Positions 15,012 to 19,120 of a stretch of DNA of 45,218 bases are shown here, in pieces. The notes beneath the pieces were generated by a model. The model was not told where the DNA came from. It searched no databases and saw only the letters and a list, made by a program, of their open reading frames with translations. This DNA is from Lachnospiraceae bacterium (GTDB lineage: Bacteria > Bacillota > Clostridia > Lachnospirales > Lachnospiraceae): assembly GCA_029007885.1 (NCBI GenBank), contig JAQXIR010000065.1:1-45218 (forward strand). Reading direction: 5' to 3'. A program made the translations under genes and the position numbers. Each line of letters begins with the position of its first letter. The first letter of the stretch is position 1.

Positions 15012-15182
15012 TCAGCCTTCAGAAATAGCACCTACCGGGCACTGTCCTGCACAGGAACCACAGTCGATACATTTTGCTTCATCGATAACAAATTGTCCAT
15101 CTCCCATGGAAATAGCGCCTACAGGACACTGTCCTTCACAGGAACCACAACTGATACATGAATCACCAATACAAAATGCCAT
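15012..15182 (-). CDS. 2[4Fe-4S] ferredoxin, 56 aa
   Basis: A short gene read from the ATG at 15182 gives a clostridial-type ferredoxin. It carries two cysteine sets, C9-x2-C12-x2-C15-x3-C19-P and C38-x2-C41-x2-C44-x3-C48-P, each for one 4Fe-4S cluster, plus an extra Cys4. The two halves are near copies (CGSCEGQCPVGAIS and CGSCAGQCPVGAIS), which reflects the known ancient duplication in this family. AAGGAGG lies 8 bases before the ATG. It is a low-potential electron carrier, for pyruvate:ferredoxin oxidoreductase, hydrogenase or the radical activase encoded next to it. A plus-strand frame here is only its shadow. Confidence 0.96.
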   Translation of the reverse strand: MAFCIGDSCISCGSCEGQCPVGAISMGDGQFVIDEAKCIDCGSCAGQCPVGAISEG

Positions 15183-15253: not shown

Positions 15254-16009
15254 TTACTGCATTTCTGCACGCCTCTTTTTAATTCCCTCTAATATGACAG
15301 CCTTCTTTTCGATTGCAACGGACTTATCAAGCGGTTTTAAATCTTTTAACTTGTAATCAATTCCAAGTTCCTTATATTTTGGCTTTGCCATGTCATGATA
15401 AGGTAACACATCAAGAGCCTCCAAATTGGATAACTGCCCGATAAAATAGCCAAGCTCGAAAAGGTATTTGTCATCATCTGTTATGCCGGGAACAACTACA
15501 TGACGAATCCAGACAGGAACATGCTTTTCGTCCAGATATTTTGCGAAAGCAAGAATGCCATCATTTGGCTGTGAAGTAAGTTCCTTGTGTTTTTCAGGAT
15601 CGATATGTTTGATATCAAGCATAACAAGGTTTGTAAGTGGCATCAGTTGATCGAGTTTCTTAATATATTCCGTATTGCCGGGTTTAAATGTAATACCGGA
15701 AGTGTCAATACAGGTATGGATATTTTCCTTTTTTGCCAGAGTGAAAAGGTCAATCAGAAAATCAACCTGTAACAGGGGCTCTCCACCTGTTACGGTGATT
15801 CCGCCGCCTTTATAGAAACTCTTATTTCGATTATACTGTTCAATGATATACTCCGGGTCTGTCAGTGTGCCTGCATTGATTTCCCAGGTATCGGGATTGT
15901 GACAATATGCACAGCGCATAGGGCAACCCTGACAAAAAACAACATATCGAACGCCCGGACCATCAACTGTACCGAAACTCTCTAAAGAATGTATTCTTCC
16001 CTGAGTCAT
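15254..16009 (-). CDS. pflA: pyruvate formate-lyase activating enzyme
   Basis: PFL activase is a radical SAM enzyme that abstracts a hydrogen from the PFL glycine. The cluster motif CPMRCAYC (C29, C33, C36) is present, preceded by TVDGPGVRYVVFCQG. GGEPLLQ, DTSG and HVVVPGITD motifs follow. The length of 251 residues is normal. AAGGAGG precedes the ATG at 16009, and a further upstream in-frame start has none. It is downstream of the split PFL genes but separated from them by a terminator, so it probably has its own promoter (TATACT on the minus strand near 16035). Confidence 0.96.
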   Translation of the reverse strand: MTQGRIHSLESFGTVDGPGVRYVVFCQGCPMRCAYCHNPDTWEINAGTLTDPEYIIEQYNRNKSFYKGGGITVTGGEPLLQVDFLIDLFTLAKKENIHTCIDTSGITFKPGNTEYIKKLDQLMPLTNLVMLDIKHIDPEKHKELTSQPNDGILAFAKYLDEKHVPVWIRHVVVPGITDDDKYLFELGYFIGQLSNLEALDVLPYHDMAKPKYKELGIDYKLKDLKPLDKSVAIEKKAVILEGIKKRRAEMQ

Positions 16010-16084: not shown

Positions 16085-16116
16085 AAAAAACCTCATCCGT
16101 AGGGATGAGGTTTTCC
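16085..16116 (-). terminator. terminator of split PFL operon
   Basis: AACCTCATCC and GGATGAGGTT form a strong stem with a short loop. On the minus strand it is followed by TTTTTT, 30 bases after the glycyl-radical gene. Confidence 0.85.
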
Positions 16117-16144: not shown

Positions 16145-16390
16145 CTAGATGGATTCATGGAATGTACGTGTAATAACGTCATTCTGCTGTTCCGGAGTTA
16201 ATTTGATGAAGTTAACCGCATATCCGGATAAACGAATTGTCAACTGCGGATAGTTTTCAGGATGCTTCTGAGCATCTAATAAAGTATCTCTGTTTATTAC
16301 GTTAACGTTAAGGTGATGACCGCCTTTTGTTGCATAGCCATCTAATAAAGAAACCAGGTTATCTACCTGAGCTGTTGAAGCTGCTGCCAT
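16145..16390 (-). CDS. stand-alone glycyl-radical domain of PFL (GrcA-like)
   Basis: The 81-residue protein equals the C-terminal end of pyruvate formate-lyase. It shows [36 protein letters not shown], the radical motif RLSGYAVNF with Gly56, and the end [14 protein letters not shown]. Its own ATG has GGAGGA upstream, so it is made as a separate chain. The neighbouring PFL core lacks this region. Family knowledge says such a domain (E. coli GrcA/YfiD) can complement a broken PFL. Here it is inferred to be the normal source of the radical: core (679) plus this (81) equals the 760 residues of E. coli PflB. Confidence 0.93.
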
Positions 16391-16412: not shown

Positions 16413-16622
16413 TTATCTTTTAGAATAATCATCTAATCCTTGTTCCAAAGTAGGAACGCTGCAAGCCAACGGAGTTCTGGAACAATCCGTACATCCTAAG
16501 GTCTGCACTGCTTTTGTGGAATCGACCTCTTCATCCACATCTACATTTACATGGCCGACACCCATGCCCATGCCGGAATCCAGCTGGGCAACGAGGTCGT
16601 CAATCATCTTTTTTTCGTCCAT
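16413..16622 (-). CDS. small protein resembling the N-half of the glycyl-radical domain, Cys-rich end
   Basis: This 69-residue protein lies between the PFL core and the radical-domain gene, with AAGGGA before its ATG at 16622. Residues 7-29 (DDLVAQLDS...GHVNVDV) align without gaps to residues 9-31 of the downstream protein, with about ten identities, including the LV..LD, G and HxNVxV positions. After that it diverges. The radical motif is absent and the tail is TLGCTDCSRTPLACSVPTLE, with three cysteines. It looks like a paralogue that lost the glycine and gained another role. It could be a regulatory or protective subunit of the split PFL, or a decaying duplicate. The function is unknown. 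Confidence 0.8.
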   Translation of the reverse strand: MDEKKMIDDLVAQLDSGMGMGVGHVNVDVDEEVDSTKAVQTLGCTDCSRTPLACSVPTLEQGLDDYSKR

Positions 16623-16633
16623 TTTGCCGTCCC

Positions 16634-18673
16634 TTATTTGCTTAAATCAACATCAATGTCTCCGACAAATACTTTATCATCTTTACCAAGTGCGTTCGGG
16701 ATGATTGTGAAGGTATTGGAGATACCATCCTGTGCATCCTTGAACGGAAGTTTGGAAACAGAAGATAAGGAAGCGATAGCACCGTGAGTATCACGTCCGT
16801 GCATCGGGTTAGCACCCGGAGCGAAAGGCTGTCCTTTTCTACGTCCGTCAGGTGTGTTACCTGTTGCTTTTCCGTAAGTTACGTTAGAAGTAATTGTCAG
16901 GATAGAAGTTGTCGGGATACCGTTTCTGTAGGTATGATGTCTTCTTACAGCGGTCATGAATTTATGAACAACTTCCTGTGCAATTAAGTCTACACGGTCA
17001 TCATCATTACCGTATTTCGGGAAGTCACCTGTTGTCTCGAAGTCAACGATGATTCCGTCTTCGTCTCTGATCGGTTTTACAGTAGCGTATTTGATTGCTG
17101 ATAAAGAGTCAGCTACGATGGAAAGACCTGCAACACCTGTTGCGAAGTAACGTTTTACGTCTCTGTCATGAAGAGCCATTTCTGCTCTCTCGTAGCAGTA
17201 TTTATCATGCATATAGTGAATGATGTTCAGAGTATTTACATATACATCTGCCTGCCATTCCATCATGTCGACGAATTTGCTCATAACATCATCATAATCA
17301 AGAACATCGCCTTCTACCGGACGATATTTCGGTCCAACCTGTTTCTTTGTTACTTCGTCTACACCGCCGTTTAAAGCGTACAGTAAACATTTAGCAACAT
17401 TAGCACGTGCGCCGAAGAACTGCATTTCCTTACCGATAACCATGGAGGATACACAGCAAGCAATACCGTAATCATCACCATGAGTTACTCTCATAAGGTC
17501 ATCGTTCTCATACTGGATGGAAGAAGACTGGATAGACATCTTCGCACAGTATCTCTTGAAGTTTTCAGGAAGTCTTGTAGACCAGAGAACTGTTAAGTTC
17601 GGTTCCGGTGAAGCACCTAAGTTGGATAATGTATTTAAGTAACGGAAAGATGTTTTGGATACCAATGTACGTCCGTCAACACCCATACCACCTAAGGATT
17701 CAGTAACCCATACCGGATCGCCGGCGAAGATCTGATTGTATTCAGGAGTACGAGCAAATTTGATCATACGTAATTTCATGATGAAGTGATCGATGAATTC
17801 CTGAATCTGTTCTTCTGTGAATGTTCCGTTCTTTAAGTCTCTTTCTGCATAGCAGTCGATGAAAGTAGAAGTACGTCCTAAGGACATAGCAGCACCGTTC
17901 TGCTCTTTAACAGCTGATAAATATCCGAAGTAAGTAGCCTGGATAGCTTCCTGTACGTTTGAAGCAGGTTTGGAAATATCGCATCCGTAAGAAGCAGCCA
18001 TTTCTTTCATCATCTTAAGAGCTGTCATCTGTTCGGAAAGTTCTTCACGAAGACGGATAACATCATCTGTCATAACACGTCCTGTAGAATCTTTCTGTGC
18101 CTGTTTGTCTTCAATCAGTCTGTCAATACCGTATAATGCAACACGTCTGTAGTCACCGATGATACGTCCGCGTCCGTAAGCATCCGGAAGACCTGTGATG
18201 ATGTGGGATGAACGGCATGCTCTCATTTCCTGATTGTATGCATCGAAACATCCTGCATTATGTGTTTTTCTGTGAGTTGAGAAGAACTCACTGATTTCAG
18301 GATCAACAGTATATCCGTTGTCTGTACAAGCCTTTTCTGCCATTCTGATACCGCCGTAAGGCTGAAGAGAACGTTTGAAAGGTTTGTCTGTCTGGAAACC
18401 AACGATTTTTTCTTTGGATTTATCAAGGTAACCCGGTCCGTGAGAAGTAATTGTGGAAACAACTTTGGTATCCATATCAAGAACACCGCCTGCTTCTCTT
18501 TCTTTCTTGGACAGGTCTAATACCATTGCCCATAAATCTTTTGTGTCCTGTGTAGGTCCTGCTAAGAAACTTTCATCTCCTTCATACGGAGTGTAGTTCT
18601 TCTGGATGAAATCTCTGACATTGATTTCAGTTTCCCATTTGCCGCCTACAAAATCTTTCCATTCTGGTCTCAT
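16634..18673 (-). CDS. pflB: pyruvate formate-lyase core lacking the glycyl-radical domain
   Basis: PFL converts pyruvate and CoA to acetyl-CoA and formate. The catalytic pair Cys406-Cys407 is in [10 protein letters not shown], followed by [23 protein letters not shown]. The substrate region [21 protein letters not shown]-type segment (around residues 150-170) is intact. The protein stops after [20 protein letters not shown], just where E. coli PflB enters its C-terminal radical domain. The stop is a clean TAA followed by a new ribosome site, so this is not a simple frameshift. AGGAGG precedes the ATG at 18673. The gene heads a leftward operon with the 69-aa and 81-aa genes, with a long structured leader. 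Confidence 0.95.
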
Positions 18674-18768: not shown

Positions 18769-18797
18769 ATTATAAAATACAAGAAAATCAGCGTCAA
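18769..18797 (-). promoter_or_regulatory. promoter of split PFL operon
   Basis: On the minus strand TTGACG (18792-18797), a 17-base spacer and TATAAT (18769-18774) make a near-perfect sigma-A promoter, in keeping with a highly expressed fermentation gene. Confidence 0.85.
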
Positions 18798-18928: not shown

Positions 18929-19120
18929 ATGGCAGATATTACGAAGGACATGACAATCGGAGAAATCTTAAGATCCAATCCGGATATTGCACCTGTTTTG
19001 ATGGAGGCAGGAATGCATTGCCTCGGATGCCCGGCTTCACAGGCGGAAAGCTTAGAAGAAGCTGCAATGGTGCATGGAATTGATATAGACACATTAATGG
19101 AGAAGATCAAAGCAATATAA
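18929..19120 (+). CDS. DUF1858 (redox disulfide) protein
   Basis: The 63-residue protein belongs to the DUF1858 family, also called the hybrid-cluster-protein-associated redox disulfide domain. Seen are [39 protein letters not shown] with the CxxC pair C31 and C34 (MHCLGCP) and a helical end. CGGAGG precedes the ATG. It has its own promoter, divergent from pflB, and its own terminator. The family is common in anaerobes, and the CxxC suggests a thiol redox or metal role. The exact function is not known. Confidence 0.9.

Follow-up and report, generated by a model that had tools for sequence, protein, structure and literature searches.

A conserved cysteine-tailed protein encoded within a split PFL locus of Lachnospiraceae is a candidate accessory subunit of the enzyme

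The gene lying between the two parts of a split PFL in a Lachnospiraceae bacterium encodes a 69-residue protein that we propose, at a probability of about one half, to be an accessory subunit of a three-part PFL made up of a core, a cysteine-tailed adaptor and the stand-alone glycyl radical domain protein GrcA3. PFL is a central, oxygen-fragile enzyme in gut anaerobes. Profile comparisons trace the N-terminal half of this middle protein to the helix and strand that pack the radical domain against the core, and in the genomes sampled the protein was found only together with split PFL.

Results

The window, that is, the whole stretch of DNA analyzed, comprises 45,218 nucleotides of contig JAQXIR010000065.1. 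The PFL core gene (16634-18673, minus strand; 679 aa) matched TIGR01255 at 1099 bits over model positions 2-667 of 744 only, its product ending in DIDVDLSK ahead of the radical domain. The ATG at 18673 is the likely start, with the longest ORF extending to 18739. The C-terminus missing from the core is covered by GrcA3 (16145-16390, minus strand; 81 aa, with the loop RLSGYAV), which matched PF01228 and, at 157.1 bits and so slightly below the cut-off of 158, NF038360. The middle-protein ORF was verified on the minus strand, running from an ATG at 16622 to 16413. It starts 11 nt after the core stop codon, with GGGACGG just 5' of the ATG, and the GrcA3 gene is directly downstream.

A promoter-like TTGACG-17-TATAAT site with 11 of 12 consensus matches lies 5' of the core (18769-18797, minus strand), such sites being no more numerous in total than in shuffled sequence, and consensus matching also found a terminator-like hairpin with a 12-bp stem between GrcA3 and PflA (16087-16114). 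With this site before the core and this hairpin after GrcA3, the core, middle-protein and GrcA3 genes look like a single transcript. Beyond the hairpin are the genes of the PFL-activating enzyme PflA (15254-16009, minus strand, likely ATG at 16009; TIGR02493, 292.6 bits, above cut-off) and of a 4Fe-4S ferredoxin (15012-15182, minus strand; NF058577), the latter kept in the loci of 65 of 77 relatives. On the other side, a gene divergent from the split PFL encodes a DUF1858/TIGR03980 redox-disulfide domain protein (18929-19120, plus strand); it was a neighbor in 54 of 57 loci and is a possible functional partner.

The genome from which the window derives has one PFL core and two GrcA3 genes, and it lacks an intact PFL. 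As this is the sole core and no intact PFL accompanies it, GrcA3 would be an obligate part of the enzyme and not merely a spare. The second GrcA3 gene is isolated (G000:C184:1076-1306, L080), flanked by a polyribonucleotide-nucleotidyltransferase-like gene and a SpoIIIAA-like gene, both named by eye, and is probably a true spare copy. Two GrcA3 genes were also present in many relatives.

The first-pass annotation had paired residues 7-29 of the middle protein with residues 9-31 of the radical-domain protein; the identities number exactly 10 out of 23, and the local score of this alignment was equalled by 2 of 5000 shuffles. Profile-profile comparison of 54 middle proteins with 32 GrcA3s (hhalign) gave a probability of 96.1% and an E value of 3.2e-9 over residues 2-33 only, with no alignment of the tail to GrcA3. 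When run on whole genomes, the middle profile also matched the start of GrcA3 and of the radical domains of intact PFLs, and NF038360 in turn gave weak matches to middle-protein members (E 4e-4 to 0.02, far short of the cut-off). By these tests, the N-terminal half (residues 7-33) is a paralogue of the first helix and strand of the radical domain and the tail is not. The earlier description of a radical-domain paralogue without the glycine is thus borne out for the N-terminal half, and the RVSGYAV glycyl radical loop with its glycine was absent from the middle protein and from all 97 distinct relatives.

The whole protein had no NCBIfam or Pfam match above cut-off, the tail no database match, and the middle profile no match in the PDB by sequence. 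One MAFFT alignment paired the tail with the radical loop (PQLTIRVSGY with TPLACSVPTL), a pairing that was rejected because it had no profile-profile support. The viral contigs searched held no relative of the middle protein. Complete PFL genes were seen on IMG/VR contigs of up to 233 kb (L273, L294, L299 and L300), which are listed as viral and may carry them as phage sequence or host flank.

Across 396 genomes of the family, the middle protein (called at E <= 1e-8) was present in 97 and GrcA3 (called at E <= 1e-41) in 153, a few of the latter being fused to intact PFL. The link to split PFL on which the first-pass annotation depended held throughout: GrcA3 was present in 97 of 97 middle-protein genomes and the middle protein in 0 of 243 genomes without GrcA3 (Fisher value 1e-52, overstated since the genomes are kin). 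The core, middle protein and GrcA3 were together in 80 of 80 named loci. Carriers included Acetatifactor muris, Kineothrix alysoides and Parablautia intestinalis, and the protein also occurred in some further families of the order (L008, L011). This synteny, the presence in about a quarter of the genomes (97 of 396) and the strong purifying selection described below indicated that the middle ORF is a gene and not a chance reading frame. Genome G002 has an orphan middle gene distant from the PFL locus together with a core lacking a tail, which fits action in trans. Middle-protein genes were also observed off the PFL locus beside a CheC-like gene in an incomplete genome (L005, 1477-1677) and beside the gene of a MoxR-like ATPase (L006, 1501-1707). 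In-frame stop codons (TGA in G110; TAA in G012 and G421) were considered as selenocysteine or read-through codons and rejected, since they either fell outside ordinary ORFs or closed them.

Judged by pN/pS, the strongest constraint is on the tail (about residues 39-65) and not on the radical-domain half, the values being 0.046 for the tail, 0.137 for the N-terminal half and 0.40 for the linker (about residues 28-38), with 0.052 for GrcA3. The three cysteines of the tail noted in the first pass (C44, C47 and C54) are all present; only C47 (96 of 97 non-redundant members) and C54 (95 of the 95 members long enough) proved strongly conserved across relatives, C44 being replaced by Ser in 23 members. 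The near-invariance of C47 and C54 and the low pN/pS of the tail are the opposite of the random drift of Cys residues that the same annotation had weighed. A53, C54, P57 and T58 were kept in 93-95 of the 95 members long enough, and in the N-terminal half G23 and H24 were invariant over the 97 non-redundant members and D15 was present in 96. In G012 and G026 the tails were shortened, ending right after the first Cys pair.

Almost all of the split PFLs examined that lacked a middle gene had a Cys tail at the C-terminus of the core itself (e.g., ECGNQACNIPNIMESIDNE, GCDCGPDMSCGIPNLMEGIDD, DCSNGACASPTLFEGLDVE and GCGDMACKVPTLHKGIDD). These cis tails were frequently of the form of the middle tail, C...AC.[IV]P[NT]L, and others were of the DCACCEPN type; some core tails, of the DCACCEPN and GCC types, share with the middle tail no more than their richness in Cys and their C-terminal location. 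Among distinct core ends, a Cys after ALG was found in 0 of 96 accompanied by a middle protein, whereas 37 of those without one carried two or three Cys. Ten cores scored by pattern as having neither tail nor middle protein were mostly pattern misses where a profile or tblastn search finds the middle protein. A Lachnospiraceae genome (G300, L234) was the sole clear exception with neither, and neither occurred on the viral-collection contig L279, which carries a split PFL; the tail is therefore not indispensable. The simplest reading of this complementary pattern is that the cis tail of the core and the middle protein in trans represent a single function. The sequences strongly suggest that the middle protein is an adaptor giving the core its thiol tail in trans. 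The strong constraint on the tail, and its place on the core itself in sister lineages, point to an accessory arm of the core more than to a free competitor.

Other small proteins with a comparable N-terminal half were also observed. A second family, of the type HHGRCDVGSP[WF]AKG (L075, L076, L078, L086 and L326), has a related N-terminal half and a strictly conserved HHGRCDVGSP tail; it is present in G002, G022 and a few more split-PFL genomes, had no Pfam or NCBIfam match above cut-off, and has a copy (L078) adjoining a threonine-dehydratase-like gene named by eye. A third, of the type CCHMYGR..ET..LLDMYTD (L073, L074 and L077), combines a similar N-terminal half with a CC(H/N)(M/V)YG(R/K) tail. 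None of the HHGRCDVGSP- and CCHMYGR-type loci inspected was a PFL locus. A fourth variant (LDEETAKGTGRYGV...YDHGRNLGD; L331, 1450-1644) lies 5' of an MreB-like gene in G002. The second and third families point to reuse of the helix-strand module with other tails.

Structure prediction with the core, as proposed in the first pass, was carried out on an in-frame read-through fusion of core and middle protein (L162, TAA read as Gly), using an alignment of 68 rows of which nine were intact PFLs from viral-collection contigs. The model had a pLDDT of 78 and a pTM of 0.84, with confident values of about 87 for the middle helix and about 78 for the strand. Its superposition on E. coli PFL (2pfl; Z 51.7, rmsd 2.2, 695 residues, model 1-730 on chain 7-745) placed the N-terminal half at the position of the radical domain, a groove position that is partly imposed by the read-through fusion and by the intact PFLs in the alignment. 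The tail was disordered (pLDDT < 45), and a core-middle-GrcA3 read-through fusion with only close relatives in its alignment (L139) reached a pLDDT of 43. A groove shared with the radical domain, as first suggested, is thus plausible and agrees with the fused model, biased as this is by homologues. On this model, the middle protein looks like a protein that docks at the radical-domain docking site.

Discussion

A close parallel to the middle protein is in the repair of E. coli PFL. Oxygen-cleaved PFL (residues 1-733) binds YfiD with a KD of 14 uM and supports YfiD activation, whereas with PFL cut at 695 YfiD binding was undetectable and 32-fold less radical was formed than with the cut at 733; residues 696-733 are described as a recognition element, one that has to leave its place before YfiD docks (PMC8683613). 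This stub is, like the N-terminal half of the middle protein, a segment of the radical domain preceding the glycine, and it is located on the core, where it is required for binding and activation of the spare part. The E. coli stub is covalent and made by damage, whereas the middle protein is a separate gene product with a new tail. As the middle helix and strand are equivalent to the stub and the core is an even shorter truncation, we infer that the middle protein has the role of the stub. GrcA/YfiD and GrcA3 (NF038360) also share the first helix and strand with the middle protein and are encoded by PFL-associated genes, but the middle protein lacks their RVSGYAV loop and glycine and has the Cys tail. 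In the literature covered, which took in a minority of subscription journals, neither the middle protein nor GrcA3, nor any counterpart, was found described.

We propose that the helix and strand would dock on the core in the groove left empty by the radical domain and there act as a stub or recognition element, the part played for YfiD by residues 696-733 in oxygen-cleaved E. coli PFL. The middle protein would cover the vacant active site and then hand over to GrcA3, a placeholder role that is likely. While oxygen-damaged GrcA3 is being exchanged, the thiol pair of the tail may protect or sense the oxidation state of the Cys pair at the active site, or may anchor GrcA3.

The first-pass annotation had also raised an inhibitor or oxygen-protective plug. 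In such a case the whole protein would sit in the groove when GrcA3 is absent. Its tail would then lie within the active site, where one tail Cys would be linked to the catalytic Cys pair (IACCVSSM) by a disulfide that reduction reverses. We consider this unlikely: the homology of the N-terminal half to the radical domain, the near-invariant C47 and C54, and the conserved redox-disulfide DUF1858 and ferredoxin neighbors are consistent with it, but the model shows the tail as disordered and the core-tail lineages use a similar tail without the docking helix. Somewhat less probable still is an assembly or activation factor whose tail would be a short motif recruiting PflA or another partner, with GrcA3 activated only on the core. 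Conservation of C.[VI]P[TN][LI]..G.D beyond the need of a mere flexible thiol argues for such a motif, as does the lack in GrcA3 of the long disordered N-terminus that aids YfiD activation in E. coli (PMC8683613), but tails of the CACCEPN type have no PxL part.

A metal or Fe-S accessory subunit that tunes radical transfer, like BSS-beta or the small subunit of 4-hydroxyphenylacetate decarboxylase, appears more doubtful again, even with conserved Cys in an anaerobic radical-enzyme operon that includes a ferredoxin. The precedent is in X-succinate synthases, whose accessory subunits BSS-beta and BSS-gamma are HiPIP-like [4Fe-4S] proteins (PMC12590467) and resemble the middle protein in being small, Cys-containing additions to a glycyl radical enzyme. 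However, each middle tail has just two strictly conserved Cys, the tails of G012 and G026 are shortened, and Pfam and PDB sequence searches found no similarity to BSS-beta, BSS-gamma or the decarboxylase small subunit. A functionless, decaying remnant of a duplicated radical domain would account for the lost glycine loop and is very improbable, being contradicted by the selection data (tail pN/pS of 0.046) and by conservation over many genera.

Extending our reading of the middle protein as an accessory subunit, we tentatively suggest that the split PFLs of Lachnospiraceae possess an unrecognized thiol tail, in cis or in trans, which may protect or reset the vacant radical socket during GrcA3 exchange. 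Such PFLs would be permanent three-part enzymes with a replaceable cofactor and not a rescue system.

That PFL is split into a body and a radical piece in many gut Lachnospiraceae, with a third small gene between them, suggests an accessory part for an oxygen-sensitive empty socket, and a split in the only PFL of a genome, accompanied by a conserved third protein, implies that exchange of the radical part is routine. The middle protein suggests, in a form that can be tested, how the enzyme copes with an empty active site, and would extend the GrcA/YfiD repair story by one component. It may also provide a genetic handle on the air tolerance of Lachnospiraceae.
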